The notes under the pieces were generated by a model. It ran no database searches. It was not told the origin of the DNA and worked only from the letters and a program-made list of their open reading frames with translations. A stretch of 32,472 nucleotides of DNA from Pseudochrobactrum saccharolyticum (GTDB taxonomy: Bacteria > Pseudomonadota > Alphaproteobacteria > Rhizobiales > Rhizobiaceae). Positions 9,361 through 26,883 of this stretch are shown here, piece by piece. The stretch is taken from positions 1-32,472 of the forward strand of contig NZ_VZPG01000007.1 of assembly GCF_008801715.1 (NCBI RefSeq). The letters run 5' to 3'. Numbering within the stretch: position 1 is the first letter of the stretch; every line of letters begins with the position of its first letter. The position numbers and the translations under genes are program-made.

Positions 9361-9362
9361 AA

Positions 9363-12212
9363 TTATTCTCCGATACGCTCAGTGTCCGGTGAAGCTTGCA
9401 AAACATCAGCAAATTCAGCATCCAGCAATGTGAGGGCGCGATTATAGTCAAGATTGTCGAGAGCGATCTTCACCGGATGAGCCTGCAGAGTGTCAGGTGT
9501 CATACCGAGCGTAATCGCCAATTTTTCAAAACTGCTGCGTGCCTTCAGACTTCTGCGTTCCAGAAGCCCGCGGAAAACCAGAATCTCCGCCTGAATATTG
9601 ACCGGATCAGCTTGTCCTGCCGGAACCGGTTTATTATCATCTTCTGTTGTAGTTACAAGACTCTTAGCCGCTTTTATTGCCGGTTTCAGCACCTGCTCCA
9701 ATTCAGCAATCAATATATTAGCCGCAACCACATCACCTTGTGCCAATGCAGCTTCAGTCTTGGCAGACTGTTCATAAACCTCTGCCAGTTCCAGCGATCC
9801 CGCCACACCTTTCAGCGTATGGGCGCTGCGCCGCGCATCATCCAATGCACCGCGACCGATCAGCTCGTTGAGCTCTTCCGGTGTTGCAGCAAATCTCTGT
9901 CCGAAATCGATAATCAGCTTACGCAATAGTGATGTTTTACCGTTCATACGCGCCAGCGCTTTTGTAAGATCAAACGGCGGCAAGCTTTCCGGCAAATCCC
10001 TTACAGGCTTCACTGCGACCGGAGCAGACTCTGCGACCGGATGCGCAGCTTCTTTGCTGCGCGGCTTCAACCAACGATCAAGTGTGCGAACCAGCAGGAA
10101 CGGATCAACCGGTTTGGCCACATGGTCGTCCATACCCGCAGCAAAACATTTCTGCCGCTCTTCCTCATAGGCATGCGCAGTCATGGCAATAATCGGCAAT
10201 TGCTCCGCAGACCATTTTTTACGGATCTGCAAAGTGGCTTCAATACCGTCCATTTCCGGCATCTGGATATCCATCAAAATGCCGTCATAGGGCAGCGGAT
10301 CCTGAAGAACGAGATCGCAGGCGATACGGCCGTTTTCAGCAACATCAACCACCAATCCGGCATCCTGCAGCAGCTCAACCGCGATCTCACGGTTGATCAT
10401 ACTATCTTCAGCCAGCAGAACCTTCAGACCACGCAGTTGTTCCGCCACCATCGGAATAGTCTGACCGATTTCCGCATGCGGCGCATCCGCCGCTGTTTCA
10501 CGGGCAAACAAGCCGGTAATCGTGTCAAAAAGCACATTCGGGACAATCGGCTTGGTCAGGAAGGCAGCAATACCCGAACGCTCGGTTTCAGCACGGAAGT
10601 CCTCATTACCATAGGCCGTCACCATCACCACATAAGGCAGCGGCGAAAGATTCTCATTACGATGAAGCGCCTGTACTGTTTGCAGACCGTCCATGCCGGG
10701 CATTTTCCAGTCCAGAACCACCAGATCATAAGGCTGGCCGGCTTTGCATGCTCCTTCAAGCGCGCCCAGGACTTCCTCACCGGATGCAACGAGATCAATA
10801 TTCAAGCCCCATGAATTAAAGACATCATGGAAAATCTCGCGCGAGGCCGGATTATCGTCAGCCACAAGTACACGCAAACCTGCAATCTCTGCCGAAGCGA
10901 TGCGCTCCGGCTCAGTCTGCATTTCACCGATTGCCATATTGACGGTAAAGGTAAAAGTACTGCCCACACCCGGCATGCTTTCCACGCCGATTGTGCCGCC
11001 CATCTGCTCAACAATTTGTTTGCTGATAACAAGTCCAAGTCCGGTACCACCAAAGCGGCGCGTCATGGAACTGTCGGCCTGCGTGAAAGAATTAAACAGC
11101 AAAGCTTGCTGTTCCGGTGCCATACCGATCCCCTGATCACGCACCGATATGCGTAGTTTAACACCTGCATCCTGCTGCTCTTCAGCATCAACCGTGACTG
11201 TGACAGTCCCTTTTTCGCTGAACTTCACCGCATTGCTGACGAGATTGAGCAGCACTTGATTCAGGCGCAATTCATCGCCGACCAGAACTGCAGGCACATC
11301 ATTCTGAATTACAGTCTCAATGCTGACGCCCTTATTCTCCGCATTAATTGCCGCCAGATTAAGCTGGCTCTGCAAAGAAGAGCGTAAATTGAACGGACGT
11401 GTCTCGAGAGAAAGCTTGCCTGCCTCATTCTTGGAGAAGTCGAGAATATCATTGATCAGCCGCAGCAGAGCCGTACTGGCATTGCTGATTTTCGAGACAT
11501 ATTCTTTTTGACGCAGATCCAGATCCGTGCGCAACACCAGATGGCAAAAGCCCAGAATGGCATTCATCGGCGTGCGGATTTCATGGCTCATATTGGCGAG
11601 GAACATGCTCTTCGATTTGCTTGCAGCTTCCGCTTCAAGGGTGCGCTGTTCCAGAGCCGCATTCTTGGCAATGATTTCATCGCGCATGGCATTAATGCGG
11701 TTGAAGCAATCGACAAGCATATCGCCGAACCACACCAGCACTGCAGCCTGAAACGCAACAATCACCGCATGAAGCAGAACGCGCTTGATATCCCCGCCTT
11801 CAGGAAACACTGCTGCAGGCATCAGATAATCCAGCGTTAAATGATGCAGAGCTACCGCAGCGGCAGCAAAAAGCACTGCACGCTTGTCACACCACGCAAC
11901 CGTGAGCGCCAGCATAGCAAAGAAATACATATGCATATCCATTTGCCAGAGCTGACCGCTCATAAAATATAGCAGCAATGCGGGCTGCCCCATCAGGGCA
12001 ACGCCGGAAATATAGCGCGTTACCGGAGCAATGCCTGAGCGCAACCATGACATATGATAGGCACCGGCCAGCACCACGCCGGCCAAAGCTGCACCGACCG
12101 GCGAATGACCGGTGACATAAGCAACCAGCGCCAGAAGCGGGACATGCAGCCAGAATAAAATCACCAAAAACCGGCCAAACCGGCTGCGAAGGTCGTCAAG
12201 TTCTAGGATCAT
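9363..12212 (-). CDS. Hybrid sensor histidine kinase (TM-HisKA-HATPase-REC-REC-HPt)
   Basis: A roughly 949-residue membrane kinase. Residues about 10-165 hold five or six membrane segments with little periplasmic sequence and the motif HHLTLDYLMPAAVFP, a sensor seen in other alphaproteobacterial signalling proteins. A short coiled coil leads to HisKA with the phospho-accepting His210 (SHEIRTP), then a HATPase domain with N, G1 and G2 boxes. Two receiver domains follow (Asp501 and Asp648), then an HPt domain with His798 (AHTLKG) and a C-terminal helical tail of about 90 residues. It can therefore run a full internal phosphorelay and pass phosphate to the downstream receiver-GGDEF protein. I choose the ATG at 12212 because it overlaps the previous stop as ATGA, a sign of translational coupling; the frame is open to 12245. 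Confidence 0.93.
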   Translation of the reverse strand: MILELDDLRSRFGRFLVILFWLHVPLLALVAYVTGHSPVGAALAGVVLAGAYHMSWLRSGIAPVTRYISGVALMGQPALLLYFMSGQLWQMDMHMYFFAMLALTVAWCDKRAVLFAAAAVALHHLTLDYLMPAAVFPEGGDIKRVLLHAVIVAFQAAVLVWFGDMLVDCFNRINAMRDEIIAKNAALEQRTLEAEAASKSKSMFLANMSHEIRTPMNAILGFCHLVLRTDLDLRQKEYVSKISNASTALLRLINDILDFSKNEAGKLSLETRPFNLRSSLQSQLNLAAINAENKGVSIETVIQNDVPAVLVGDELRLNQVLLNLVSNAVKFSEKGTVTVTVDAEEQQDAGVKLRISVRDQGIGMAPEQQALLFNSFTQADSSMTRRFGGTGLGLVISKQIVEQMGGTIGVESMPGVGSTFTFTVNMAIGEMQTEPERIASAEIAGLRVLVADDNPASREIFHDVFNSWGLNIDLVASGEEVLGALEGACKAGQPYDLVVLDWKMPGMDGLQTVQALHRNENLSPLPYVVMVTAYGNEDFRAETERSGIAAFLTKPIVPNVLFDTITGLFARETAADAPHAEIGQTIPMVAEQLRGLKVLLAEDSMINREIAVELLQDAGLVVDVAENGRIACDLVLQDPLPYDGILMDIQMPEMDGIEATLQIRKKWSAEQLPIIAMTAHAYEEERQKCFAAGMDDHVAKPVDPFLLVRTLDRWLKPRSKEAAHPVAESAPVAVKPVRDLPESLPPFDLTKALARMNGKTSLLRKLIIDFGQRFAATPEELNELIGRGALDDARRSAHTLKGVAGSLELAEVYEQSAKTEAALAQGDVVAANILIAELEQVLKPAIKAAKSLVTTTEDDNKPVPAGQADPVNIQAEILVFRGLLERRSLKARSSFEKLAITLGMTPDTLQAHPVKIALDNLDYNRALTLLDAEFADVLQASPDTERIGE

Positions 12213-12562
12213 GCGGCTGTCGTCCGTTCCTGAATGGCATAACAACCACCAGGCAGCAGTGGTTCAAAAACCAGCCACTCACCGGCACTGTAAAGCCTGT
12301 TTGGGAAATCTTTATTTTCGGAATAAACTGTAATCAGGCTGGATGAAGCATTGATAGAAATAATCGCGCCCTCAGCGGCCTGAATGGAGCTGATAACAGA
12401 GTTCAATGTGCGCCAGGGAGCGACCATAACGATATATTGGTCATCCTTGCCGGTTGGCTTGAGAAAAGCCACGGCAATCCCGCCAAGCAACAGAACCAGC
12501 AATGCAATCGCTGGCATAAGATCGCGGATATGACACCGCTGATCACCGGTCTGCCCGTTCAT
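12209..12562 (-). CDS. Small single-pass membrane protein, first gene of the kinase operon
   Basis: A 117-residue protein that I do not recognise. It has a short basic N-terminus, one membrane segment (about residues 15-34, rich in Leu, Val, Ala and Gly) and an outside domain of about 80 residues with hydrophobic strands, four-residue turns and one Cys near the end. The ATG at 12562 has CAGGA eight bases upstream; a TTG 18 bases earlier would add six residues but lacks a good site. Its stop overlaps the kinase start as ATGA, so the two are made together. That coupling suggests a sensory or accessory subunit for the kinase in the inner membrane. The function is inference from context only. Confidence 0.7.
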   Translation of the reverse strand: MNGQTGDQRCHIRDLMPAIALLVLLLGGIAVAFLKPTGKDDQYIVMVAPWRTLNSVISSIQAAEGAIISINASSSLITVYSENKDFPNRLYSAGEWLVFEPLLPGGCYAIQERTTAA

Positions 12563-12687: not shown

Positions 12688-14283
12688 TCAGCGGCGCAAC
12701 ACTTTTCCGGCTCTGTTACCGGTCGGTTTGCCTGCTGCAATCACCGCCTGTCCGTTGACAAAAACATGGCTGATACCAGACGGCATCTGTGTGGAATTTT
12801 CAAATGTCGCGTGGTCGGTAATCGCATCTTCAAACAACACCAGATCAGCAGCCATTGCGGGGCGCAACAGGCCACGGTCATGCAGAGAAAAACGCTGTGC
12901 AGCAACCGACGTCATCCGGCGCACTGCATCTTCAAGCGGGAACCATTTTTTCTCCCGCCGCAAAGGTCCGGCAATGCGTGGGAAAGTCCCGAAAGCACGC
13001 GGATGCGGCTTGGAGCCCGGACGCGGCAAACCGTCAGACCCCGCCATAAACAACCGGTTACAACAGGCCGCATAAAGATCATCCTCATCAAGCTGAAAAA
13101 GAATAATCCCTGTCTGCCCGTCATCCTCTTCAACAAAGCGCACCAGCAGATCGAAAGGCGTGGTACCAAGCGTAAAGGCAGCTTCACGCATGGTCTGCCC
13201 TTCCAGATGTTTCAGCGCCTCAATGCCGATTGCTGAAAGCCGTACATTCTCCCAACCTATCAGCGAAATTTTGCTCTGGCCGTGATAATCATCTCCGCCA
13301 TGTTCCACCCAATGCGCCAGTTTCTGCCGCCATGGCATATCCTGCAGGCGCGCTTTCAAAGCCGGCAAACCACCATCCATCACTGCCGCTGGCAGAAGCT
13401 GTAATATCCATGTACTGCCTGCCGGATAGGGATACATATCAAAGCTGATATCCACACCGTCAGATCGCAGGCTTTCCAGATAGTCAATCACCGCCGGTAC
13501 ATTGCCCCAGTTCGGCCGTCCCGCCGATTGCAGATGTGACAGCAATCCGGCTGCACCGGACAGGCGCACCGCCTCACCGAATTCTTCGGTCGCCTGCATC
13601 AGGCCTGCTTCATAGGAGCGGATATGCGCGGCCAGCACCCCGCCGAAACCAGCTACAACTTTGCCCAAAGCTACCAGTTCTTCAATCTCAGCAAAAGCAC
13701 TTGGCGGATAAACCAGCCCCAGAGACAGACCTGCCGCCCCCTGCGCCATTTGCACTTCAAGCAAGCGGCACATTGCTGCAAGCTCGCTCTCTGTGGCAGG
13801 CCGTCTGTCATGCCCCATCACTGCCAGCCGCAAAGCCGCATGGCCGACAAGTGAGATCAGATTGAGAGCAATCCCCTCTTCTTCCAGCGCCTGATGATAG
13901 CCAGAGAAATCATCAAAAATCTCATCGGAACGCGTTTCACCGAGAAGGCCGGAGAAATGCTGACGCAGATATTCGCGGGACTGTTCTGCTGCCGGATAAA
14001 GCGAGAAAGAGCAATTGCCGACCACAATACTGGTCACGCCCTGCATCGCCTTTTCCGGCCTGTCCCGCTCGCGCAGAAAGATCAGATCATCATGACAATG
14101 AGCATCAATAAAACCGGGGCTTAAATAACGCTCATACGCATCAATGATTTGCATATCACCGTCTGCTTTCAGACCTCTGCCGATCTGCCGGATTAACCCG
14201 CCGCTCAGCAACACATCACCGCGATACCAAGGCGCGCCGGTGCCATCAATGATACGGGCATTGCGAATGAGCGTTTGTGTCAT
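12688..14283 (-). CDS. D-aminoacylase-type N-acyl deacylase (amidohydrolase)
   Basis: A 531-residue metal-dependent amidohydrolase of the N-acyl-D-amino-acid deacylase family, which frees an amine from an N-acyl (usually N-acetyl) group. Metal ligands match the family at a constant offset: His62-x-His64 (HCHDD), Cys91 (GNCSF), histidines in AHIRSYE and SHLQSAG, and the catalytic Asp in AGSDG. The ATG at 14283 is preceded by GGAG six bases away and gives the family's usual N-terminus. An alternative ATG at 14310 overlaps the ridA stop (TAATG), so translation may be coupled. It lies downstream of ridA and near an IclR gene, a Dpp importer, a PLP enzyme and a KDG kinase. The natural substrate may be an N-acyl-D-amino acid or an N-acetylated amino-sugar acid such as N-acetyl-D-glucosaminate; the second option is inferred from neighbours. 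Confidence 0.9.
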   Translation of the reverse strand: MTQTLIRNARIIDGTGAPWYRGDVLLSGGLIRQIGRGLKADGDMQIIDAYERYLSPGFIDAHCHDDLIFLRERDRPEKAMQGVTSIVVGNCSFSLYPAAEQSREYLRQHFSGLLGETRSDEIFDDFSGYHQALEEEGIALNLISLVGHAALRLAVMGHDRRPATESELAAMCRLLEVQMAQGAAGLSLGLVYPPSAFAEIEELVALGKVVAGFGGVLAAHIRSYEAGLMQATEEFGEAVRLSGAAGLLSHLQSAGRPNWGNVPAVIDYLESLRSDGVDISFDMYPYPAGSTWILQLLPAAVMDGGLPALKARLQDMPWRQKLAHWVEHGGDDYHGQSKISLIGWENVRLSAIGIEALKHLEGQTMREAAFTLGTTPFDLLVRFVEEDDGQTGIILFQLDEDDLYAACCNRLFMAGSDGLPRPGSKPHPRAFGTFPRIAGPLRREKKWFPLEDAVRRMTSVAAQRFSLHDRGLLRPAMAADLVLFEDAITDHATFENSTQMPSGISHVFVNGQAVIAAGKPTGNRAGKVLRR

Positions 14284-14309
14284 ATCCGGCTCCGGCACTT
14301 CATTGAGCA

Positions 14310-14654
14310 TTACAGGGCAGCAACTGCTGTCATTTCAACCCGCAGGTCTGGATCAGCAAGGCGCGCTTCCACACAGGCACGCGCCGGCGGGTTTTCCGGA
14401 TCAATCCATGCATCATAGACCGAATTCATCGCATCAAAATCAACAATGGCCGGAAGAAACACATTCACCGCCAGCAATTTGGAACGGTCAGTGCCTGCCT
14501 GTTGCAAAAGCTGATCGATCTTGCCCAAAACATCACGGGTTTGCTCTTCAATAGAAGCCTTGCGGTTTTCAGCCACCTGACCGGCAATATGCACCATGCC
14601 GCCATAGCTCACGGCCTGACTCATCCGGCTGCCTTTTTGATAACGCATAATCAT
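14310..14654 (-). CDS. RidA/YjgF-family protein
   Basis: A 114-residue RidA-family protein with the typical core: RMSQAV, HIAGQVA and PPARACVEARLA, containing the substrate-binding Arg, then a final VEMTAVAAL. RidA enzymes hydrolyse reactive enamines and imines such as 2-aminoacrylate released by PLP-dependent dehydratases. The ATG at 14654 follows GAAGGA at about nine bases; earlier in-frame starts (14675, 14711, 14735) would add a tail unlike the family. It overlaps or abuts the deacylase gene downstream and is divergent from the IclR gene. A PLP dehydratase-type enzyme encoded in the same cluster (21047-22129) is an obvious source of its substrate. Confidence 0.9.
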   Translation of the reverse strand: MIMRYQKGSRMSQAVSYGGMVHIAGQVAENRKASIEEQTRDVLGKIDQLLQQAGTDRSKLLAVNVFLPAIVDFDAMNSVYDAWIDPENPPARACVEARLADPDLRVEMTAVAAL

Positions 14655-14701
14655 ACCCGTATTTCCTTCTGTCATCGTCACTTCTGATTGTAAACTTCTG
14701 C

Positions 14702-14747
14702 TTGCCTGCATGATAAAATCCAATATAACAGACACAATAACATTATA
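14702..14747. promoter_or_regulatory. Divergent ridA/iclR promoter region with candidate IclR site
   Basis: For the IclR gene, TTGCCT (14702-14707) and TATAAC (14724-14729) are 16 bases apart. On the other strand a perfect TATAAT lies at 14742-14747 as a -10 for ridA, with CTGACA at 14767-14772 a possible -35 at a long 19-base spacing. TCCA-N8-GACA (14719-14734) overlaps the first -10. It matches half-sites and spacing of the palindrome in front of the importer operon (20897-20914). Confidence 0.45.
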
Positions 14748-14765
14748 GCGCTCATCGGAGGCAGC

Positions 14766-15554
14766 ATGTCAGACAGTACCGCAACCGCTCCGGTCACGCC
14801 CAAAGAAGACAGCAGCAAACGTGCGCGCGGTCTGGATCGTGCCTTTGAGATACTGGATTTTCTGCGCAACAAGCGCGAACCGCTGAAACCCAATGAAATT
14901 GCCGCCCAAATCGGTGCCCCGCGTTCCTCGGTTTACGAGCTGGTCAATCTGCTGTTGCGCAATGGTATTCTCGAATTTACCGGCGGCGACGGTCGTGTGT
15001 TTCTCGGACGCAAACTCTATTTTCTCGGTGCGGCCTATGAAGATCATTTTGACTTCATGCGCGCCTGTGATGCCGCGCTGGAACGCATTGCCGAACAGAC
15101 CCGTGAAACAGCGCAATATTGCGTGCTCGACGGCAATAAATATACCGTTGCCCGTATGAAAGAAGGCGTACGCCCGTTCCGCATTTCCTCGGATGTCGGC
15201 CATTCCGTGCCTATTCCGTGGACAGCTTCCGGCCGTCTTCTGGTTGCTCATCTCAGCGATGAAGAAATTACCAGTTTCATTCCCGCTGCCGACTTTCAGA
15301 TGCCTAATGGCAGCTGGCTTGATCCGGCTGAATTTATCGCGCAGGTACGCGAAGCCGACAGAACCGGTCAATTTACTTTCAACAGCACAGTCGATAATTT
15401 CACCCATTGTTTTGCCGTACCGATGCGTGATGCGCAGGGTATTGCGACCGCAACGCTGTGCCTTGTTGCCCCCCGCGATGACGGGCTGAAGAACCATGCT
15501 TTCTATCTGCAATGCCTGAAGGATGCCGCACAGGCGCTCAGCGGCAAGCACTGA
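14766..15554 (+). CDS. IclR-family transcriptional regulator
   Basis: A 262-residue IclR-type protein. Residues about 20-85 form the winged helix (LDRAFEILDFL, then PNEIAAQIGAPRSSVYELVNLLL). Residues about 95-260 form the IclR ligand-binding domain, with conserved stretches PIPWTASGRLLVAHL and FAVPMRDAQG. The ATG is preceded by GGAGG four bases away. It is divergent from ridA-deacylase and convergent with the importer ATPase gene, separated by only 32 bases with no terminator in between. It most likely senses the substrate or an intermediate of the cluster and controls the two divergent promoter regions. Residue-level effector prediction is not possible from sequence alone. Confidence 0.93.
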   Translation: MSDSTATAPVTPKEDSSKRARGLDRAFEILDFLRNKREPLKPNEIAAQIGAPRSSVYELVNLLLRNGILEFTGGDGRVFLGRKLYFLGAAYEDHFDFMRACDAALERIAEQTRETAQYCVLDGNKYTVARMKEGVRPFRISSDVGHSVPIPWTASGRLLVAHLSDEEITSFIPAADFQMPNGSWLDPAEFIAQVREADRTGQFTFNSTVDNFTHCFAVPMRDAQGIATATLCLVAPRDDGLKNHAFYLQCLKDAAQALSGKH

Positions 15555-15586
15555 CTGGAAGAAGCAGACTTGTTTCACCGGACCTA

Positions 15587-17407
15587 TCATTGGAATATGA
15601 AATGCCCTTCTGAAACTTCGCGCATCTGCCGCTCGACCGGTACATAATCCGGCACACGGACAGGACTGTGCAATTCATCAGCAATCTGCCCGCGCCGCAT
15701 ACCGCGTCGCGCAGGATCAGGCACCGGCACTGCTGCCATCAGCTTTTTCGTATAAGGATGTTGCGGATTTTCAAACACCGCGGCACGCGGACCGATCTCA
15801 ACAATCTCGCCCAGATACATCACCGCAACACGATGGCTGAGACGCTCAACAACCGCCATATCGTGCGAGATAAACAGAAAAGACAGATTGAGACTGGATT
15901 GCAGATCGAGCAACAGATTGATGACCTGCGCCTTAATAGACACATCAAGCGCTGAGACAGATTCATCGGCAACGATAAGTTTCGGATCAAGCGCTAACGC
16001 GCGGGCAATACAAATACGCTGACGCTGTCCGCCGGAAAATTCATGCGGGAAGCGCGACGCCATATCGGCTTTCAGCCCCACACGCTCCAGAAGATCAGCC
16101 ACACGTTCCCGCGCCTGATGTTTTGTACCGAGTTTATGCTCCAGAAACGGTTCCGCAATCGACGCCCCTACCCGCATACGCGGATTGAGACTGGCATAGG
16201 GATCCTGAAAAATCATCTGCATGGTACGGCGCAGACCTTGCAGCTCATGCCCTGCCATGGCCATCACATCCTGCCCGTTGACCATAACGGAACCGCTTTG
16301 CGGCTCTATCAGCCGCATGATCGAGCGGCCGGTCGTCGACTTACCGCAACCGGACTCGCCCACCAGCGACAGCGTTTCCCCCGGTTGTAAGGAGAAAGAG
16401 ACATTCTCCACCGCATGAACCCGCCCTGCCAGCTTCCCGAATAATCCGCTGTGAATGGTAAAGCGTGTCGTCAACCCTTTTACGTCCAGAACCGGCGGCA
16501 CGTCCTGCGCCACAGTATCAGCAGCTTCCACCGGCGGCAGTGCCGTGCCGGTTCGGATATCAACAACCGGAAAACGCAGTGGGCGCACACGTCCAGTCAT
16601 CGAACCAAGTGCAGGCACGGCTGATAGCAAAGCCCGCGTATAAGGATGCTTCGCGTCGCGGAAAATCGTGGTCGTATCACCGGTTTCCACCGCATCACCA
16701 TGATACATCACCACGGTACGATCAGCCACTTCTGCAACCACGCCCATATCATGGGTGATGAACAATACCGAAGTGCCTTCCTCTTCCTGAAGGGTTTTAA
16801 TCAGGTCGAGGATTTGCCCCTGAATGGTTACATCCAGCGCTGTAGTCGGCTCGTCAGCAATCAGCAGTTTCGGGCGGGTAACCAGCGCCATAGCGATCAT
16901 CACGCGCTGACGCATACCGCCGGAGAAACGATGCGGATATTCATTGAACCGGCTTGCGGCAGACGGAATGCGAACCTTTTCCATCAGTCGCAGAGCTTCA
17001 GCCTTTGCCTCTGCCTTACTCATATTGCGATGGCATAGCAGGGCTTCACAAATCTGATCTCCTACCGTGTAAAGCGGGTTGAGCGAAGTCATCGGCTCCT
17101 GAAAGATCATCGCGACATCATTGCCGCGTATTTTTTGCATTTCCTGCTCGGACAACTGCAAGATATCTTTACCTGCAAGCAGAATATTCCCCTCAATCCG
17201 GCTGGTATCCGGCTGCAACAGCCGCATCACCGATAGTGATGTAACGCTTTTTCCAGATCCGGATTCCCCGACCAGCGCCACGGTTTCCCCTGCGCCGACA
17301 TCGAAGGAGATATTTTTCACAACAGATCGCCAGCCATCCTCACCAAGAAAAGAGGTTGTGAGATTTTGCACGCGGAGCACAGGCTGTTTGTCTGATAAAT
17401 GGCTCAT
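15587..17407 (-). CDS. Dipeptide/oligopeptide-type ABC transporter, fused double ATPase (DppD-DppF)
   Basis: A 606-residue protein with two complete ABC domains of the DppD/OppD and DppF/OppF type in one chain, as in GsiA-like importers. Domain 1: Walker A GESGSGKS (47-54), FSGGMRQR signature, IADEPTTALD. Domain 2: Walker A GESGCGKS (350-357), FSGGQRQR signature, VADESVSALD. Each domain is followed by the HPYT motif typical of this group. It powers the two permeases encoded just upstream in the operon. The ATG at 17407 uses GAGGG overlapping the previous stop; the adjacent ATG at 17410 is equally in frame, while the longer open frame to 17503 lies inside dppC and is not credible. Note DESVSALD instead of DEPVSALD in domain 2, a mild change. 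Confidence 0.93.
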   Translation of the reverse strand: MSHLSDKQPVLRVQNLTTSFLGEDGWRSVVKNISFDVGAGETVALVGESGSGKSVTSLSVMRLLQPDTSRIEGNILLAGKDILQLSEQEMQKIRGNDVAMIFQEPMTSLNPLYTVGDQICEALLCHRNMSKAEAKAEALRLMEKVRIPSAASRFNEYPHRFSGGMRQRVMIAMALVTRPKLLIADEPTTALDVTIQGQILDLIKTLQEEEGTSVLFITHDMGVVAEVADRTVVMYHGDAVETGDTTTIFRDAKHPYTRALLSAVPALGSMTGRVRPLRFPVVDIRTGTALPPVEAADTVAQDVPPVLDVKGLTTRFTIHSGLFGKLAGRVHAVENVSFSLQPGETLSLVGESGCGKSTTGRSIMRLIEPQSGSVMVNGQDVMAMAGHELQGLRRTMQMIFQDPYASLNPRMRVGASIAEPFLEHKLGTKHQARERVADLLERVGLKADMASRFPHEFSGGQRQRICIARALALDPKLIVADESVSALDVSIKAQVINLLLDLQSSLNLSFLFISHDMAVVERLSHRVAVMYLGEIVEIGPRAAVFENPQHPYTKKLMAAVPVPDPARRGMRRGQIADELHSPVRVPDYVPVERQMREVSEGHFIFQ

Positions 17408-17414
17408 CATGCCC

Positions 17415-18278
17415 TCACATATCTTTACGCAAACGCGGGTCGAGAAGATCGCGCAATCCGTCGCCCACCATCTGCAACGACAGCACGGCGAGAATGATGG
17501 CAAAACCCGGGAACAGTGTCATCCAGTCTGCCTGTCCGACATATTGACGGCCGGAGGCAATCATCGTTCCCCATGTCGGAATTTCCGGACTGACACCAAG
17601 CCCCAAAAAGGACAAACCGGCTTCGGCAAGCATGGCCTGCGCAAACAGAAACGTCCCCTGCACCAGAATAGGTGACAGCAAGTTGCGCAACACATGGCGG
17701 GTCATAATATGCGGCGTGGAAATGCCCAGCGCACGCGATGCCTCAATATAAGGCAGTTCGCGGATAACGAGTGTTGAAGCACGCACCACACGCGCCAGTC
17801 TCGGTGCATAGACAATCGACAGCGCCACAATCACTGTTGTCAGCGAAGGCCCGAGTGCTGCCACCAGCGCAATCGCCAGCAGAATATCGGGAAAAGCCAT
17901 CATCGCATCAATCAGACGCGCAATCGGTGTATCCAGCCGCTGGAAAAAACCGGCCAGCAAGCCGAGTGTGATACCAATCAGGCTTGCCAGAACGACAACC
18001 GCAGCGCCGACTGCCAATGACAACTGCCCCGCATAAAGTGTGCGGGAAAATACATCGCGGCCAAATTCATCGGTGCCGAAAAACCATGTGCCATTCGGTG
18101 CGGTCAGACGATTGCTGATCGACAATTTACCCGGTGCATAAGGCGCAATCAGTGGTGCCAGAACGGCTAGCAACACAAAAACGATCAGGACGAACAGGCC
18201 GAATGCAACGGTACGGCGGCGCAACAGGCGACGGATAAACAACCATGTTTCTGAGGATTTTACACTGGAGCCGGTCAT
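17415..18278 (-). CDS. Dipeptide/oligopeptide-type ABC permease (DppC-like)
   Basis: A 287-residue inner-membrane permease with about six membrane segments, an N-terminal OppC-type segment (residues 20-50) and the coupling loop EASRALGISTPHIMTRHVLRN that contacts the ATPase. The FGTDEFGRDVFSR motif is diagnostic for the DppC/OppC half of these importers. Its start overlaps the stop of the previous permease gene (TGATG), so the two are translationally coupled. Together with the DppB-like permease it forms the channel of the importer in this cluster. Confidence 0.94.
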   Translation of the reverse strand: MTGSSVKSSETWLFIRRLLRRRTVAFGLFVLIVFVLLAVLAPLIAPYAPGKLSISNRLTAPNGTWFFGTDEFGRDVFSRTLYAGQLSLAVGAAVVVLASLIGITLGLLAGFFQRLDTPIARLIDAMMAFPDILLAIALVAALGPSLTTVIVALSIVYAPRLARVVRASTLVIRELPYIEASRALGISTPHIMTRHVLRNLLSPILVQGTFLFAQAMLAEAGLSFLGLGVSPEIPTWGTMIASGRQYVGQADWMTLFPGFAIILAVLSLQMVGDGLRDLLDPRLRKDM

Positions 18279-19219
18279 CAGTAACGCACCCTCGGATCGA
18301 CGGCCAGATAAAGCATATCAATGGCAAAATTTATCAGAACATAGAGCGCGGCAATCACCAGCAATGCCCCCTGAATAACCGGATAATCACGGCGCATCAC
18401 AGCCGAGACAACAAGATTGCCAACCCCCGGCAAGCCAAACACCGTCTCTGTGACCACCGCACCGGAAATCAGTACAGCTGCGGTCAGGCCGATCACTGTC
18501 AAAATCGGGATCAGCGCATTTTTAAACGCATGTTTCATCACCACGCGTCTGCCATTCAGCCCCTTGGCTCGGGCTGTGCGCACATAATCATCGCCCAGCA
18601 CATCCAGCATCGAGGCGCGGGTAAAACGCATGATGAGAGCAGAAGACACAATACCCAGCGCGAAAGACGGCAGCACCAGATGCATCATTCGTTCGCCGAA
18701 ACTCGTATCCGGCCCGCCATAGCCGGAAACCGGAAACAAGCCGTAGCGCACGGCAAATACCTGCATCAGCAGCAGGCCGAGCCAGAAGCTTGGAATACTT
18801 GCGGCAAACATCGCCAGCGCCGTTGCGGTCTGATCAAAAAATGAACCTCGCTTAACCGCGGCATAAATACCGACCGGCAATGCAATCGCACTGGCAATCA
18901 GAATGGAGAACAATGTGAGAAAGAAGGTCGGCTCTGCCCGTTCCGCCAAAGCATGGGCAACCGGCTGACCGAGAAAGATCGACTGGCCAAGATCACCGCG
19001 CAGCAATTGCAGCAGGTAATAGCCATATTGCACCGGCAATGAGCGGTCGAGACCGAGTTTAGCCCGCAGTCCTTCAATATCAGCCTGTGTCGCTTCCGGC
19101 CCCAGCATGACGGCTGCAGGATCGCCCGGTGTGACGCGGACGATCACAAAAACAATCGTCACAACCAGAAACATGACCACGATCATGCCGATCAGACGCT
19201 GTATGATATAGCGTAGCAT
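18278..19219 (-). CDS. Dipeptide/oligopeptide-type ABC permease (DppB-like)
   Basis: A 313-residue inner-membrane permease with about six membrane segments, starting MLRYIIQRLIGMI as is usual for DppB/OppB. It carries the long periplasmic loop after segment 1 (PGDPAAVMLGPEA, then LGLDRSLPVQYGYYL) and the coupling motif DYVRTARAKGLNGRRVVMKHA. It is the second gene of the importer operon, 80 bases after the binding-protein gene and separated from it by a GC-rich stem-loop. The substrate is set mainly by the binding protein, not by this subunit. Confidence 0.94.
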   Translation of the reverse strand: MLRYIIQRLIGMIVVMFLVVTIVFVIVRVTPGDPAAVMLGPEATQADIEGLRAKLGLDRSLPVQYGYYLLQLLRGDLGQSIFLGQPVAHALAERAEPTFFLTLFSILIASAIALPVGIYAAVKRGSFFDQTATALAMFAASIPSFWLGLLLMQVFAVRYGLFPVSGYGGPDTSFGERMMHLVLPSFALGIVSSALIMRFTRASMLDVLGDDYVRTARAKGLNGRRVVMKHAFKNALIPILTVIGLTAAVLISGAVVTETVFGLPGVGNLVVSAVMRRDYPVIQGALLVIAALYVLINFAIDMLYLAVDPRVRY

Positions 19220-19257
19220 TCAGTCTCCACCCAATTCGGGAATACCCAAAACTTAAA

Positions 19258-19290
19258 GCCGCGCCGCCTCTCCTCCGAAGCTGGCGCGGC
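19258..19290 (-). terminator. GC-rich stem-loop between binding-protein and permease genes
   Basis: Arms GCCGCGCC and GGCGCGGC pair perfectly around a 17-base loop, nine bases after the binding-protein stop codon. Such hairpins usually protect the upstream message or reduce read-through, giving more binding protein than permease. There is no T run of terminator quality on the minus strand. Confidence 0.55.
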
Positions 19291-19299
19291 CTGTTTTAT

Positions 19300-20829
19300 T
19301 TACTGCGTAACGGAAGCATTCCAGAAATAAGGCCATGGTGCAGGCGTTACACCATCCAGTTTCTTGGACTTGGCAGACAGATTGTTAAAGTTGCCGACCT
19401 TGATGAACGGCACTTCGTCGAACACAACTTTCTGCACATCTGCCCAGAGTGCCGCACGCTTCTGCGGATCAGCCTCCGCATTAAACGCATCCATCACTTT
19501 GGCACGCGCCGGTGTATTCCACTTGCCCGGTGCGCTCACTGAAAGCGGATCAATCAGAGCCGGTTCCGGCAGGAACGGACTATGCGTGATGTAAATATCC
19601 CAGAGTGCCGGATCAGCACGGCGCTGAGTGAGCGTTGCCCAATCCACCACCTGCATATCAACATTGAAACCGGCCAGTTTCAGATATTCAGCGGCAACCT
19701 GTGCCATCTTATAATGGAACTCATATTGACGGCTGGTGAGAATACGCAGCGGCTCGCCGTTATAATTCGCAGTTTTAAGCAGCGCCTTTGCAGCTTCCGC
19801 ATCACCGACATTATAGCTGCCTTCCGATCCCGCATCTGTGCTCCAGATGAATTGAGACGGATAAAGTGACGGCTCGGCGCTGAAGAAATCCTTGCTGCCA
19901 TAGGCGGCAGTCAGCATGTCCTCATTATTCAATGCGACCTGAACAGCTTTACGCAGATCACGGTTTGCAGCAATGCCTTTGGAAGTATTCATAATGAAAA
20001 CCGGCCAGCCGAATGGTTTGAGCATCACGGCATCCGAAGACGCCGAGCCGGACACACGGTCAAAAGCCTCAACCGGCAGCGCATCCACATAACCATACTG
20101 GCCGGAAACCGCAGCTTCTACGCGGGTATTGGCATCCGGCACCGGCACAAAACGGATTTCATCGAGATTTTGCTGGCGGCCACCGGCATAACCGCTCGGC
20201 TCGCCTTCCTGCGATTTATAACCGTCATAACGCACCAGCTGAATATACTGATCCGGCTTACGCTCTTTAAACTGATAAGGGCCGGTGCCGACAAATTCAG
20301 TCATCGGTTCAGCCTGTTTTTCAGCAGGCAAAACAATGGCCGCGGAATTGTTAAAAGCCAGCAGCGAGGTCAGCGGTGCATAAGGCTGCTTCAGCGTGAT
20401 TTTGATGCTGTGATCGCCAACCGGCTCAATGGCTTCAATCAAAGTTGCTGCCTGTTTGCCGCGCGAGGCCAGTGTCGTCCAGCGCTTGAGGGAGGCCACA
20501 ACATCTTCCGATGTCATGTCTGTACCGTCGTGGAATTTAACGCCCTCACGCAGTTTAATCAGATAGGTTTTTCCGTCGGCAGAGATTTCCGGAAGGCTGG
20601 CAGCCAGAAGCGGCGCCGGTTTCCAGTCTTTATCGAAAGTATAAAGCGTCTCAAACATATGCTGACTGACAATACCGACGAGATCAGCCGTTGAGACCAT
20701 CGGGTCCAGTGTCGGCGGCTCACCAATAGTTGCCACATCCAGTACGCCGCCTTTTTGCTGCGCGAAAGCGGATGGTGTCAATGCGATTGTCGCGGCACCC
20801 AATAACAGTGCCAGTTTCATTGCCTGCAT
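19300..20829 (-). CDS. Extracellular solute-binding protein of the Dpp/Opp family (SBP_bac_5)
   Basis: A 509-residue periplasmic binding protein. Residues 1-28 form a signal peptide (MKLALLLGAATIALTPSAFA, cut after AFA), with no lipobox Cys. The mature part shows the family-5 pattern: PPTLDPMVSTADLVGIVSQHMFETLY, LREGVKFHDGTDMTSEDVVASL, FVGTGPYQFKER. Proteins of this family bind peptides but also nickel, sugars and chito-oligosaccharides, so ligand identity is open. The ATG at 20829 has GGGGG eight bases upstream; an ATG at 20820 (three codons later) overlaps the stop of a possible leader ORF. It is the first gene of the importer operon and divergent from the PLP-enzyme gene. Confidence 0.92.
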   Translation of the reverse strand: MQAMKLALLLGAATIALTPSAFAQQKGGVLDVATIGEPPTLDPMVSTADLVGIVSQHMFETLYTFDKDWKPAPLLAASLPEISADGKTYLIKLREGVKFHDGTDMTSEDVVASLKRWTTLASRGKQAATLIEAIEPVGDHSIKITLKQPYAPLTSLLAFNNSAAIVLPAEKQAEPMTEFVGTGPYQFKERKPDQYIQLVRYDGYKSQEGEPSGYAGGRQQNLDEIRFVPVPDANTRVEAAVSGQYGYVDALPVEAFDRVSGSASSDAVMLKPFGWPVFIMNTSKGIAANRDLRKAVQVALNNEDMLTAAYGSKDFFSAEPSLYPSQFIWSTDAGSEGSYNVGDAEAAKALLKTANYNGEPLRILTSRQYEFHYKMAQVAAEYLKLAGFNVDMQVVDWATLTQRRADPALWDIYITHSPFLPEPALIDPLSVSAPGKWNTPARAKVMDAFNAEADPQKRAALWADVQKVVFDEVPFIKVGNFNNLSAKSKKLDGVTPAPWPYFWNASVTQ

Positions 20830-20858
20830 TTTCTGAACCCCCAATTGTTTGCCTGCAT
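20817..20858 (-). CDS. Possible 13-codon leader ORF before the binding-protein gene
   Basis: An ATG at 20858, 12 bases after the strong ribosome-binding sequence GAGGAGGAG, opens a 13-codon frame (MQANNWGFRKCRQ). It ends in TGA overlapping the ATG at 20820 (ATGA) of the binding-protein gene. The start lies inside a perfect hairpin (CTGCATCA-GG-TGATGCAG on the plus strand, 20853-20870). It may couple translation to the hairpin, or be a chance frame; nothing in the peptide is recognisable. Confidence 0.3.
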   Translation of the reverse strand: MQANNWGFRKCRQ

Positions 20859-20896
20859 CAGGTGATGCAGCTCCTCCTCGGTATGATTTTTCATTT

Positions 20897-20914
20897 TGTC
20901 CAAAATAATGGACA
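20897..20914. promoter_or_regulatory. Palindromic operator candidate before the importer operon
   Basis: A perfect palindrome, TGTCCA and TGGACA separated by AAATAA, lies in the 200-base divergent region. A TAAAAT on the minus strand (20922-20927) is placed just upstream as a possible -10, so the palindrome would cover the transcription start. A related TCCA-N8-GACA copy sits at 14719-14734 in front of iclR/ridA. The IclR protein of this cluster is the likely binder; this is inferred. Confidence 0.5.
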
Positions 20915-20932
20915 TTGGTCTATTTTACCGGA

Positions 20933-20961
20933 TTGACGTATCTCAATACAGTATGCATAAC
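20933..20961 (+). promoter_or_regulatory. Sigma-70-type promoter candidate for the PLP-enzyme/kinase genes
   Basis: TTGACG (20933-20938), a 17-base spacer, then CATAAC (20956-20961) form a reasonable promoter about 85 bases before the start codon at 21047. A small palindrome CTTG-T-CAAG overlaps its downstream edge (20961-20969). Confidence 0.4.
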
Positions 20962-21046
20962 TTGTCAAGGGGGCGACCAGCCTGACCGGTACGTTTTTTG
21001 ACGTCTGAAAGGCAAGTCAACAGGGTCGCGGAATTTGTGAGGAAAA

Positions 21047-22129
21047 ATGGAACCAAAACTTGCGGACCAATTGAACACACCGGCAATTGTCGTTGATCTG
21101 GATATAACGGAAAGAAATATCCGTAATTTTCAGTCCTATGCGAACCAGCATGGTTTCAAGGTACGTCCTCATATCAAAACGCATAAATTACCGGCGCTGG
21201 CCTATGCCCAGCTTGCAGCAGGCGCAGACGGCATTACCTGCCAGAAAATCTCTGAAGCAGAAGCCATGCTCGACGGCTTGCAAAAACAATATGGTCTCTC
21301 CCCTGACCTGTTGATTACCTATAATATTTTAGGCAGCGAAAAACTTGACCGGCTCAAAGCGCTCGCGCACCGCACAAAACTAAGTGTGGTTGCGGATAAT
21401 ATGACTGTGATTAACGGTCTGTCCGAAGCTTTCGCCAATGAGGCACAGCCTTTAACGGTGCTGGTAGAATGCAATACCGGCGCAGACCGCTGCGGTGTAG
21501 CAACGCCTGAAGCAGCAGCAGAACTTGCCAAAGCCATTCATAATGCTGCAGGGCTGCATTTCGGCGGCCTGATGACCTATCCGCCGGCAAATGCCCATGC
21601 TGCCGTTGAAAACTTCATGGAACAGGCAAAACAAAAAATCGAAGCATCCGGCATCACAGTTCCGCTCATTACCTCCGGCGGCACACCCTCAATGATGAGC
21701 GCAGCAGAAGCAGCTGTTGTCACGGAATATCGTCCCGGCACTTATATTTACAATGACCGCTCGCTCGTTGAGCGCGGCGCTTGCAGTTACGATGATTGTG
21801 CGTTTTTTGTATTGGCGACTGTTGTGTCCGTGCCGTCTGACAACCGCGCAATTATTGATGCCGGCAGCAAAACGCTGACTTCTGACCTGTTCGGATTGAG
21901 TGGTTATGGCCATGTCCTCGGCCGCGATGATATCCGCATCGATCAGCTGTCAGAAGAACATGGCCGTCTGGTCAGCAACAAGCCGATCAACCTCAAAGTC
22001 GGCGACAAAGTACGGATCATTCCGAACCATGTCTGCGTCGTTACCAATATGTTTGACAGCCTCTATATCCAGCGCAACGGCATGGTCACTGAAAGCTGGC
22101 CGATTGCAGCCCGTGGCAAGCTGGTCTGA
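21047..22129 (+). CDS. D-serine dehydratase/D-threonine aldolase-fold PLP enzyme
   Basis: A 360-residue PLP enzyme of the fold-type III alanine-racemase-like class. Residues 40-47 carry the cofactor lysine motif RPHIKTHK (Lys44). Near the C-terminus His328-x-Cys330 (NHVC) matches the zinc ligands of D-serine dehydratases; D-threonine aldolases usually have His-x-Asp there. Such enzymes remove ammonia from, or split, D-configured beta-hydroxy amino acids. D-glucosaminate, also a beta-hydroxy-alpha-amino acid of D-type, is dehydrated to 2-keto-3-deoxygluconate by PLP enzymes in related bacteria. The kinase gene that follows acts on exactly that product, so D-glucosaminate is an attractive substrate; D-serine or D-threonine are alternatives. 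The ATG is preceded by GAGGAAAA. It is divergent from the importer operon, and its stop lies eight bases before the kinase start. Confidence 0.88.
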   Translation: MEPKLADQLNTPAIVVDLDITERNIRNFQSYANQHGFKVRPHIKTHKLPALAYAQLAAGADGITCQKISEAEAMLDGLQKQYGLSPDLLITYNILGSEKLDRLKALAHRTKLSVVADNMTVINGLSEAFANEAQPLTVLVECNTGADRCGVATPEAAAELAKAIHNAAGLHFGGLMTYPPANAHAAVENFMEQAKQKIEASGITVPLITSGGTPSMMSAAEAAVVTEYRPGTYIYNDRSLVERGACSYDDCAFFVLATVVSVPSDNRAIIDAGSKTLTSDLFGLSGYGHVLGRDDIRIDQLSEEHGRLVSNKPINLKVGDKVRIIPNHVCVVTNMFDSLYIQRNGMVTESWPIAARGKLV

Positions 22130-22137
22130 GGTTAATC

Positions 22138-23031
22138 ATGAGCGGACAGTTTCTCGCCATCGGTGAGGCAATGATCGAGCTTGCCCCTGATGGCAGCGGC
22201 TTGTTACGGCAAGGCTTTGCCGGAGACACCTTCAATGCTGCTTATTATGCCCGTGCGGCGCTGCCAACTGACTGGCAGGTCAGCTATTTCACTCTGCTCG
22301 GGCGGGATGCAATGTCCGATGCCATGCTGGCATTCATGGCACAAAAACAGATCGGAACCGACTATATAGGGCGCCATGCATCGCGCATGCCCGGCCTCTA
22401 TATGGTGCATCTCAATAATGGTGAGCGTAGTTTCTCCTATTGGCGCTCGCAATCTGCAGCGCGTCTGCTGGCAGACAACAAAACTGCATTGCGACAGGCC
22501 ATTGAAGCTTCTGATATTATTGTTTTCTCCGGCATCACACTGGCAATCCTTGAGGGAGACGGTGCTGATAATCTGCTCAGCATTCTGCAAGAGTTCCGTG
22601 ATACGAATAAGATTATCGCCTTCGATCCCAATATCCGCCCGCGCCTCTGGCCGGATCAGGATCATATGCGCTCGCAACTGATCCGTGGTGCGAAAGCCAG
22701 TAATCTGGTGCTGCCAAGTTTTGATGATGAGGTCGCCTGTTTCGGTGACTTGACGACAGCGGACACAATCAGCCGCTATCGCAGCTACGGTCTGAAGCGG
22801 ATCATCGTCAAAAATGGTGCGGATGAAATCGAAGTTCTTTTTGACGGCCAGTCTTTTACTGTCAAAATAGCGCCTGTCGCACAGATTATTGACACCACAG
22901 GCGCAGGCGACAGTTTCAACGGCTCATTCTTAGGTCATTTTGCACAAACCGGCGATGCCGAGGTCGCCATCCGTTTTGCAGCGCAAACCGCAGCAAAAAC
23001 CATTCAGCATTATGGCGCTCTGGTAGACTAG
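22138..23031 (+). CDS. kdgK: 2-keto-3-deoxygluconate kinase (PfkB family)
   Basis: A 297-residue ribokinase-family sugar kinase. Residues 26-38 (GFAGDTFNAAYYA) and 97-111 (RSFSYWRSQSAARLL) are characteristic of KDG kinases, where Tyr and Arg hold the keto-acid. Residues 252-261 (DTTGAGDSFN) carry the anion hole and the catalytic Asp258. It should convert 2-keto-3-deoxygluconate plus ATP to KDPG for the Entner-Doudoroff aldolase, which is not in this window. The start follows GAGG at six bases, in the tail of the PLP-enzyme gene, so the two are co-translated. The stop codon TAG is the first three bases of an intergenic repeat; the protein length is normal, so no truncation is evident. Confidence 0.9.
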   Translation: MSGQFLAIGEAMIELAPDGSGLLRQGFAGDTFNAAYYARAALPTDWQVSYFTLLGRDAMSDAMLAFMAQKQIGTDYIGRHASRMPGLYMVHLNNGERSFSYWRSQSAARLLADNKTALRQAIEASDIIVFSGITLAILEGDGADNLLSILQEFRDTNKIIAFDPNIRPRLWPDQDHMRSQLIRGAKASNLVLPSFDDEVACFGDLTTADTISRYRSYGLKRIIVKNGADEIEVLFDGQSFTVKIAPVAQIIDTTGAGDSFNGSFLGHFAQTGDAEVAIRFAAQTAAKTIQHYGALVD

Positions 23032-23192: not shown

Positions 23193-23972
23193 TTAGCGAT
23201 AAACAATACCGCCGTCAGTCAGAATGGCCTGACCGGTAATATAATCAGAATCAGCCCCTGCAAGGAAAGAAACCAGCGCCGCCACATCATCCGGTGTTTG
23301 CGCACGGCCAAGGGCAATCCCTTCAACAAATTTCTTATAGGTCTCGCCCTTCGGTGCACCGGTAATTTCCGCAAAGCGTTCGTCAATTTCCACCCACATA
23401 TCGGTACCGACAATACCCGGACAATAAGCATTCACGGTAATGCCCGCACTGGCATATTCCTTCGCCGCAGCCTGTGTCAGCGCACGTACTGCAAATTTGG
23501 TCGCGGAATAAACGCCAAGCATCGCAAAACCATCATGACCGGCAATAGACGACGCATTGATGATTTTACCCTTCTGGCCGCGCTGCTTGAATTTTGCCGC
23601 CGCCGCCTGAATACCCCAGAGCACACCGTCAATATTGATCTTAAATATCCGGTCAACTTCTTCCGGTGTGACCTCGGAAAGCGGCTTAACCTGCGCAATA
23701 CCGGCATTGTTCACAATCACATCAAAACCACCGAGCTCTTTCTCGGTATATTCAATGGCCGCGTAAATATCATCGCGCTTGCTGACATCGGCAGCAAAAG
23801 TCGTTGCCTTGCGCCCGAGCGCTTCAATCTCTTTGGCAACCGCTTCAAGCTTGTCTTCTTTCAGATCAACCAGTGTCAGATCAAAACCGTCTTTTGCCAG
23901 ACGCAACGCAATGCCGCGGCCAATGCCCTGAGCCGCACCGGTAACTAACGCAACCTTATTGGTAACAGTCAT
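23193..23972 (-). CDS. budC: Short-chain dehydrogenase, diacetyl/acetoin reductase (meso-2,3-butanediol dehydrogenase)
   Basis: A 259-residue short-chain dehydrogenase. The nucleotide motif TGAAQGIG (residues 11-18), NNAG, then the catalytic Ser (NASSIAG) and YSATK are in place. The run [21 protein letters not shown] and the ending [14 protein letters not shown] are typical of acetoin-forming diacetyl reductases and 2,3-butanediol dehydrogenases, which use NADH to reduce diacetyl and acetoin and so regenerate NAD+. The ATG at 23972 follows AAGGA at seven bases; longer in-frame starts lack a good site. A perfect FNR-type box about 140 bases upstream suggests induction when oxygen is low. No acetoin-forming genes are nearby, so substrate supply is unclear. 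Confidence 0.82.
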
Positions 23973-24110
23973 AATCATATCCTTTTCGTCTTGAGGATCG
24001 AAAACCTGCCGGTCAACATGCCTGCTATACACGGCCGCAATATGGCCTTTTGCAATGCATGTCTGCTACCGGATATGAGGGCAGAATTGCAAATTTCCTG
24101 CATTAATTCA

Positions 24111-24661: not shown

Positions 24662-25747
24662 GTGCATTCAAAAGACCACACCGGACAAAGTGATAACAGA
24701 CTTGCTGCGTTGGAGGTTTCATCCGTCAGCAGACATTTCGACACCACTGCCGCACTGCAGGATATTTCGCTGTCTGTTGCTTCCGGTGAAATCATCTGTC
24801 TTGTCGGCCACTCCGGCTGCGGGAAGACCACTCTGCTGAAGATTATCTCCGGTATTGATACGCCGGACAGCGGTTCGGTGTTCATCAATAATCAGCCTAT
24901 CGTCAACGGTACGCATTTTATCGAACCGGAGCAACGCCGCGTCGGCGTAGTCTTTCAGAATTACGCCCTGTTCCCGCATTTGACAGTAAAGCAAAATGTC
25001 CTGTTCGGCTTGCGGAAAACACCTCGGGCAACAGCCTCGGCCCGTGCCGATGAATTGCTGGCTCTGGTCGGCTTGTCCCATATGGCATCCCGTTATCCGC
25101 ATATGCTCTCGGGCGGTGAACAACAGCGCGTGGCATTGGCGCGCGCACTGGCGCCGACCCCTGACATTCTGCTGATGGATGAGCCCTTTTCCAATCTCGA
25201 TCAGGGTTTGCGCCAGAAAGTACGCAGTGAAACCATAGCTCTGCTGCGCCAGTTGGGCACCACCGTTATTATCGTTACGCATGATGCCGAAGAGGCTTTG
25301 TCTGCCGGAGACCGGATTATCCTGATGAAATCAGGCAAAATCATCCAGCAGGGCACAGCGCATGAAATCTACGACCATCCGAACGGACGTTATGCAGCTG
25401 ATTTCTTCTGCAGTTTCAATGCTATTCCGGGCACAATCAAAAGCGGGACGATTGAAACTCCGCTCGGCACTTTTCCGGTCAGCAATACAGAGCTCAGCGA
25501 CGGACCGGTAACAATGTATCTGCGACCTTCCCATATTCTTCCGGTGGCCGGTACAGATAATCTGCAGAACACAACTGAAGGCACAGTGACAGGCCGTCAT
25601 TTTCTGGGTGAAACTGAAGAACTGCTCATCCGCACCGGTGATCTGCAAACGCCCCTGCGCATCCGCACTTCTCTCCGGTTACCGGCCAATATTCAGAAAA
25701 TACATTTGCAGCTGGATACGGACAAAGCGCTCTTCTTCCGCGATTAA
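24662..25747 (+). CDS. fbpC: Ferric-iron-type ABC transporter ATPase (FbpC-like)
   Basis: A 361-residue ATPase of the FbpC/PotA group: Walker A GHSGCGKT (49-56), Q-loop QNYALFPH, signature LSGGEQQRVALARAL (149-163), Walker B LMDEPFSNLD and switch His in IVTHDAEEAL. A C-terminal regulatory TOBE-like domain (about residues 245-361) carries YLRPSHI. It powers the ferric importer encoded downstream. The start is a GTG at 24662 with a weak ribosome-binding site (GCAGAG); no better start lies nearby. It is first in the group rather than last, and it is separated from the binding-protein gene by its own iron-box promoter, so it may be transcribed independently. Confidence 0.88.
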   Translation: MHSKDHTGQSDNRLAALEVSSVSRHFDTTAALQDISLSVASGEIICLVGHSGCGKTTLLKIISGIDTPDSGSVFINNQPIVNGTHFIEPEQRRVGVVFQNYALFPHLTVKQNVLFGLRKTPRATASARADELLALVGLSHMASRYPHMLSGGEQQRVALARALAPTPDILLMDEPFSNLDQGLRQKVRSETIALLRQLGTTVIIVTHDAEEALSAGDRIILMKSGKIIQQGTAHEIYDHPNGRYAADFFCSFNAIPGTIKSGTIETPLGTFPVSNTELSDGPVTMYLRPSHILPVAGTDNLQNTTEGTVTGRHFLGETEELLIRTGDLQTPLRIRTSLRLPANIQKIHLQLDTDKALFFRD

Positions 25748-25780
25748 ACGCACATACAACCTGCTCACAAAGGCTTGACT

Positions 25781-25819: not shown

Positions 25820-25859
25820 TAATTTCTGTCCATGCAGTTTCAATCATGAAAGAGATACA

Positions 25860-26882: not shown

Positions 26883-26883
26883 T

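Follow-up and report, generated by a model that had tools for sequence, protein, structure and literature searches.

What does a bacterium use when it keeps an N-acyl deacylase, a RidA protein, a pyridoxal phosphate (PLP) enzyme, a sugar-acid kinase, an importer and a regulator side by side? The question is raised by positions 12688-23031 of a 32,472-nucleotide stretch of Pseudochrobactrum saccharolyticum DNA (contig NZ_VZPG01000007.1; the whole stretch is the window below), and we propose, with a probability of about 0.6, that this gene cluster serves the catabolism of an N-acylated 2-amino-2-deoxy sugar acid of the glucosaminate kind. First, a PepT-class importer would bring the acylated sugar acid into the cytoplasm, where the D-aminoacylase-like enzyme would remove the acyl group. 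The PLP enzyme would then turn the 2-amino-3-hydroxy acid into 2-keto-3-deoxygluconate (KDG) by eliminating water and ammonia, with RidA helping to clear the enamine or imine, and the kinase would convert KDG to 2-keto-3-deoxy-6-phosphogluconate (KDPG), to be split by a KDPG aldolase encoded elsewhere. The IclR-family regulator would control the divergent importer and PLP-kinase promoters via a palindrome at 20897-20914. The route from deacylation through a PLP lyase and KDG to KDPG was already read from the window in the original prediction, and as a type of pathway it is supported by gene linkage, by recurrence of the kinase and by a KDPG aldolase in the genome, but the exact substrate and its source are not.

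Two known systems frame this proposal. The ong pathway for N-acetyl-D-glucosaminate (GlcNAc1A) of Pseudoalteromonas prydzensis, as described in the passages of the sources used here (PMC9537276; PMC12017989), shares with the cluster the logic of a D-aminoacylase-like deacetylase, a fold-type III PLP deaminase, a RidA protein and a KDG kinase, the last being a KDG-kinase-like protein in the cluster; its OngC is a measured glucosaminate deaminase that also deaminates D-serine and D-threonine (PMC9537276). The dga pathway of Salmonella resembles the proposed one in that a PLP lyase deaminates a glucosaminate-type acid on the way to KDPG. However, its DgaE is SelA-like and acts after phosphorylation by the phosphotransferase system, according to the passages used of PMC9529869, whereas the cluster has a fold-III enzyme that presumably acts ahead of phosphorylation, and no DgaE-family lyase is among the ten cluster proteins.

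All the genes named in the original prediction are present, and the importer is of the PepT class. Its family-5 solute-binding protein (SBP_bac_5, 19300-20844), permease B (18278-19219), permease C (17415-18278) and fused double ATP-binding cassette (ABC) ATPase of the GsiA/OppDF-like kind (15587-17410) are all on the minus strand. The PLP enzyme (21047-22129) and the PfkB kinase (22138-23031) lie on the plus strand, the kinase starting 8 bp past the PLP stop codon. RidA (14310-14735, minus strand; 14310-14675 from a likely later ATG at 14675) and the 540-aa deacylase (12688-14310, minus strand), whose ATG overlaps the RidA stop codon, run leftward with the IclR gene (14766-15554, plus strand) divergent from them. 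By strand these are at least three transcription units, and not the single operon that reading the steps in order would imply. Ten genes, including a downstream short-chain dehydrogenase/reductase (SDR) gene, are syntenic in all five same-genus genomes with a match to the PLP gene (L051, L052, L061, L062 and L065), and conservation of the cluster within the genus is beyond chance; in a sixth same-genus genome, 61% complete, the PLP match was not found. The family of this organism includes genomes whose gene content is close to that of named rhizobia. The PLP gene gives one match in its own genome (3.76 Mb, 12 contigs), and a plasmid search returned no record spanning 80% of the cluster. The SDR itself (23193-24032, minus strand, convergent to the kinase and syntenic in the genus) scores 373 bits, above the acetoin reductase subfamily cut-off.

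Linkage to glucosaminate-type lyases and KDG-kinase-like genes

Relatives of the PLP gene were compared in 80 named loci (L066-L145; 1.55 Mb in total, 15 of them shorter than 20 kb), the best 80 of at least 589, such a gene being encoded by 589 of the 594 pattern matches listed; 15 ong-type loci were picked by hand from matches in 50 genomes, and open reading frames in the comparison loci were chosen by homology-weighted picking.

Outside the genus, parts of the cluster lie next to other lyases of the glucosaminate type. Phyllobacterium sp. 628, S. meliloti LMB1 and Neorhizobium sp. SOG26 each have all four importer components (68-84%) in one cluster with an IclR regulator (31-36%), a DgaE-family lyase and a PRK09237-type amidohydrolase, and relatives of the fused ATPase at 74-78% occur in L254-L257. 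The R. leguminosarum WSM1325 locus gave matches to three of the importer proteins and to a DgaE-family lyase, next to which a RidA and a permease are annotated, but none to the IclR regulator or the PRK09237-type amidohydrolase. Among 101 genomes searched, two outside the genus have a relative of the deacylase, at 73-74%. One (L233) adjoins a DgaE-family lyase (240 bits to 7lc0; 275 bits to the DgaE model, whose cut-off is 600); DgaE-family relatives elsewhere share the importer and the deacylase of the cluster. The other (L232) adjoins an OngC-type enzyme, together with a RidA of the window type (87%), the PAAT importer of PLP clusters (78-89%) and, at the far end, an IclR protein 74% identical to that of the cluster; this locus also holds an AstE/AspA-like deacylase, an amidohydrolase-2 gene and an ABC importer of the sugar type.

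The PAAT importer, with a family-3 solute-binding protein, accompanies the PLP gene itself in 14 of the 80 named loci and in five further loci, from rhizobia and some other alphaproteobacteria, and among the 14 an IclR gene is present in 13 and an OngD-type RidA in 12. It also stands next to OngB, OngC and an OngD-type RidA in two of the 15 ong-type loci (L184 and L190), a count that is not a rate since these loci were hand-picked; L184 additionally has an IclR protein 44% identical to the cluster's. Importer, deacylase, RidA, IclR and PLP enzyme therefore adjoin three kinds of glucosaminate-type lyase, and the simplest reading is that all of them act on one compound class.

The best solved relative of the kinase is the 2-dehydro-3-deoxygluconokinase 4e69 (247 bits). 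KdgK is its top model, with a score of 238 bits that stays under the equivalog cut-off of 400. A 46% identical relative is encoded elsewhere in the genome, and the cluster copy may therefore be a dedicated one; a KDPG aldolase (227 bits, above cut-off) is likewise encoded elsewhere. Co-occurrence of the PLP gene with a KDG kinase, a check put forward in the original prediction, is real but confined to a minority, as KDG-kinase-like genes lie within about 10 kb of the PLP gene in 11 of the 80 named loci, in at least three arrangements; in L034, beyond the 80, a kinase 52% identical to that of the cluster adjoins an IclR gene. Six of the 11 loci are from Thalassospira and a seventh, from a Rhodospirillales genome, is arranged in the same way, so that the 11 do not count as independent events. 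Four KDG-kinase-like genes were scanned, and the top model was KdgK or KDG/KDGal kinase for each, with none passing the equivalog cut-off. Kinase relatives of at least 90 bits numbered 22 in 25 non-genus genomes, or fewer than one per genome.

The proposed lyase, the deacylase and RidA

The PLP enzyme could also be read as an aldolase of the D-threonine or 3-hydroxyaspartate type, which would split a beta-hydroxy-D-amino acid into glycine and an aldehyde. Its nearest solved relatives are indeed D-threonine aldolases and hydroxyaspartate aldolase, the fold matches of its AlphaFold model (mean predicted local distance difference test score 78) are likewise aldolases, and BhcC is its top NCBIfam model, albeit with a score of 226 bits where the cut-off is 690. 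The model aligns with the folds of D-threonine aldolase, BhcC, D-threo-3-hydroxyaspartate dehydratase and D-serine dehydratase at query-normalised template modelling scores of 0.80-0.84, fold and PLP domain being shared with all of these; neither this model nor that of the deacylase gives information past the fold. However, the metal site His328-x-Cys330 is that of D-threo-3-hydroxyaspartate dehydratase, whereas the four aldolases compared have His-x-Asp, and His-x-Cys is kept in 80 of the 80 PLP genes of the named loci (79 by pattern and L094 by eye). The enzyme thus carries a dehydratase-type site on a mostly aldolase-like sequence, and it belongs to a separate conserved clade, with fork support of 87/99 against the aldolase-like rows of the tree and strong conservation among seven family members at 57-100% identity. 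An aldolase product would, moreover, need no KDG kinase, and we consider the aldolase reading very improbable.

The same enzyme is not OngC either, given that OngC-type enzymes of ong-type clusters are only 21-25% identical to it, that the 16 OngC-type rows of the tree form their own clade (100/100), the two alphaproteobacterial rows being L232, on a long branch, and L064, and that the solved match of the one OngC-type enzyme searched is 3gwq, whereas the cluster enzyme matches D-threonine aldolases.

The deacylase has equivalents of Cys97, His222, His252 and Asp368, the metal ligands and catalytic Asp of the D-aminoacylase-like amidohydrolases of subtype V, and shares its fold, the Cys/His/His metal site and the catalytic Asp with D-aminoacylase (1m7j/1rjp) and N-acyl-D-glutamate deacylase (3gip). 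It differs from these in having Gln and Tyr at the positions of PpOngB Lys254 and Glu226 and an extra insertion that is very roughly 40-60 aa long and follows the YPYPAGST motif, absent from the 480-490-aa enzymes and present in other relatives of about 530 aa. In the alignment, PpOngB Glu226, Lys254, Ser292 and Gln298 are replaced by Tyr, Gln, Thr and Tyr (Leu at 298 with the gap closed), and all four residues are kept in 15 of 15 OngB proteins of the ong loci in the same alignment; Gly at position 290 is uninformative, as four of those 15 share it. Roles of these OngB residues in GlcNAc1A binding are described in the passages used of PMC12017989, where Ser292Thr alone leaves 1.3% of kcat/Km. 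The differences at these positions therefore do not favour N-acetyl-D-glucosaminate as such, the substrate originally proposed for the deacylase. Two observations on related proteins may be added. PDB entries 9g5m/9gv8, titled 'N-Acyl-D-amino-acid deacylase (D-acylase) from Klebsiella pneumoniae', are almost identical (1077 bits, 479 residues) to the OngB protein encoded in one of the ong-type clusters (L187:7665-9140), and because that OngB has all four discriminating residues, the label of the entries may be wrong. In congener G003, the deacylase match (L206; G003:C19:27281-28897) contains an in-frame TAG.

RidA would fit beta-elimination chemistry, the enamine hazard of which is treated in PMC9529869, and OngD is essential in the ong work, its role there being unknown in the passages used of PMC9537276. 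By sequence, the cluster RidA belongs to a different subgroup from OngD, being 26-27% identical to the OngD of L180, and a search of its own genome for an OngD-type RidA gave a best match of 33%. The cluster further differs from ong systems in having an IclR regulator and a PepT ABC importer, where ong has the RpiR regulator OngR and the SSS importer OngIT, and none of its ten proteins is a GH20 enzyme or a TonB-dependent receptor. Identity with the marine ong pathway was considered and rejected on the deacylase residues, the PLP tree and the RidA subgroup; probably, the enzymes are largely different, exchangeable ones doing the same job.

The main rival, which we hold to be unlikely, is the scavenging of D-amino acids or D-peptides, in which PepT would import N-acyl-D-amino acids or D-peptides, the deacylase would free D-serine or D-threonine, the PLP enzyme would deaminate these and RidA would remove the imine, the kinase being a mere neighbour or having another role. 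It agrees with the sequence score of the deacylase, 273 bits to D-aminoacylase against 215 to PpOngB (by fold the two match about equally), and with its Dam-type Thr. Among solved RidA relatives PSPTO_0102 is nearest, with PA5083, which presumably belongs to a D-glutamate locus, lower in the list. The activity of OngC on D-serine and D-threonine also means that linkage to OngC is not exclusive to sugars. In addition, a second locus of G003 (L064:5175-8869) combines an OngC-type PLP gene with genes for an M81 hydrolase, an M55 D-aminopeptidase and a PepT importer, and looks like one for D-peptide use. What D-amino-acid scavenging leaves unexplained is the co-directional KDG kinase 8 bp downstream, kept in five of five congeners, the KDG-kinase-like genes of other PLP clusters, and the DgaE-family lyases alongside the same importer and deacylase.

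A candidate operator and the weight of the linkage

Between the divergent solute-binding protein and PLP genes, the perfect palindrome TGTCCA-N6-TGGACA (20897-20914) is a candidate operator for the IclR protein, whose relatives are 51-72% identical in other PLP clusters and 74% in a cluster of genome G046. The site is exact in five of six genus members. Scored on the outer ten bases only, within 300 bp upstream of the PLP gene, it recurs with at most two mismatches in 14 of the 18 named loci with an IclR gene (four exact) and in 11 of the 62 without one (none exact), against nulls of 10% for shuffles and 15% for random stretches of the same loci. It is exact in L034, and in G046 it occurs with one mismatch near the IclR gene and with two before the PAAT importer. 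The palindrome would thus tie the regulator to clusters with the PAAT importer, OngD-type RidA and, in G046, OngC. The central TAT is kept in 15, 16 and 17 of 17 sites, which is descriptive, as these sites were hand-picked and several come from related genomes (L084, L091 and weaker sites of class B left out; L071, L034, L232, L243 and the window added). Across the whole window, 14 matches with at most two mismatches compare with 10.5 expected, no enrichment, and the genome holds 26 sites with at most one mismatch, fewer than the 49 given by the reversed control (both strands counted); in the own genome, the site at 20897 alone matches the fuller pattern exactly. The weight of the operator rests only on this exact site and on its recurrence upstream of the PLP gene in relatives.

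A second operator in the RidA-IclR region was sought and rejected, nothing there being better than three mismatches. Together with the separate transcription units and with the two halves being seen apart outside the genus, this would suit a pair of unrelated systems that happen to be adjacent, with importer, deacylase and RidA serving one substrate and PLP enzyme and kinase another. We find such a chance pairing distinctly improbable, as the genes are syntenic in five of five congeners, the divergent intergenic region is shared with its one palindrome, and in G046 the deacylase and RidA are found together with the PAAT importer and the IclR regulator typical of PLP clusters.

Use of an N-acyl amino-sugar acid remains our preferred reading, and against it weigh, beside this lack of a second operator copy, the aldolase-like relatives of the lyase, the replaced OngB residues, the breadth of OngC and the G003 locus, several further points. 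Genes for M81/MlrC-like hydrolases are found near the PLP gene in 33 of the 80 named loci, 29 of the 33 having an RpiR regulator and no IclR, and the known role of M81 proteins is on peptides, as in microcystin breakdown. His-x-Cys also occurs in four distant second PLP genes of the named loci, so that the site is not unique to the PLP clade. A KDG-kinase-like gene was not seen in the stretches of 69 of the 80 loci, the 15 short ones bearing on this figure, and a direct control for the kinase (0 in 233 kb) covers too little DNA to carry much weight. The operator was not found in the scanned regions of L184 and L190. Outside the genus no locus was seen with the whole gene set, and the chains of linkage cross several genomes; the linkage statistics are uncorrected for relatedness, and neighbourhood steps may be chance.

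Substrate source and amino-sugar-acid use in alphaproteobacteria

Where such a sugar acid would come from is a separate question. The link to chitin suggested originally finds no backing in the genome, in which neither an AA10 lytic polysaccharide monooxygenase (PF03067; 0 of 7 genomes including this one, the control being found in 1 of 14) nor a GH18 chitinase was found, GH19 and GH20 not having been searched. A PQQ glucose dehydrogenase is present in the genome and could supply free glucosaminate, although the deacylase would then not be needed. Rhizobial lipid A may be a natural source, its N-acyl-2-aminogluconate being a possible substrate that would suit the non-OngB pocket of the deacylase; aminogluconate is described for Rhizobium lipid A in the passages used of PMC5769089.

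The rest of the window, annotated by eye, holds on the minus strand a 1119-aa protein whose N-terminal part looks like an endonuclease/phosphatase and whose C-terminal part resembles an autotransporter (4061-7420) and a response regulator with a diguanylate-cyclase-like domain beside a large hybrid sensor kinase (8425-12245), and on the plus strand an apparent iron-type ABC importer with ATPase, solute-binding protein and double-length permease (24662-28690).

The complete ong pathway is reported, in the passages used of PMC9537276, only in Gammaproteobacteria and one betaproteobacterium, and a full-text literature search, most subscription journals lying outside its coverage, gave no recognised description of this alphaproteobacterial variant. 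A bolder and rather doubtful extension is that N-acyl amino-sugar acid use in alphaproteobacteria is an exchange system, in which PLP lyases of the window, OngC and DgaE types, unrelated or distantly related to one another, unrelated amide hydrolases (D-aminoacylase-like, M81/MlrC-like and PRK09237-like) and importers (PepT, PAAT and TRAP) swap slots; the window type would then be a third family of D-glucosaminate lyase and M81 an N-acyl amino-sugar acid amidase. If our reading is right, rhizobia-like alphaproteobacteria would use amino-sugar acids by means of enzymes easily annotated as D-aminoacylase and D-threonine aldolase, and testable functions would be at hand for a large conserved clade of PLP enzymes and, more boldly, for the M81 proteins that neighbour them.

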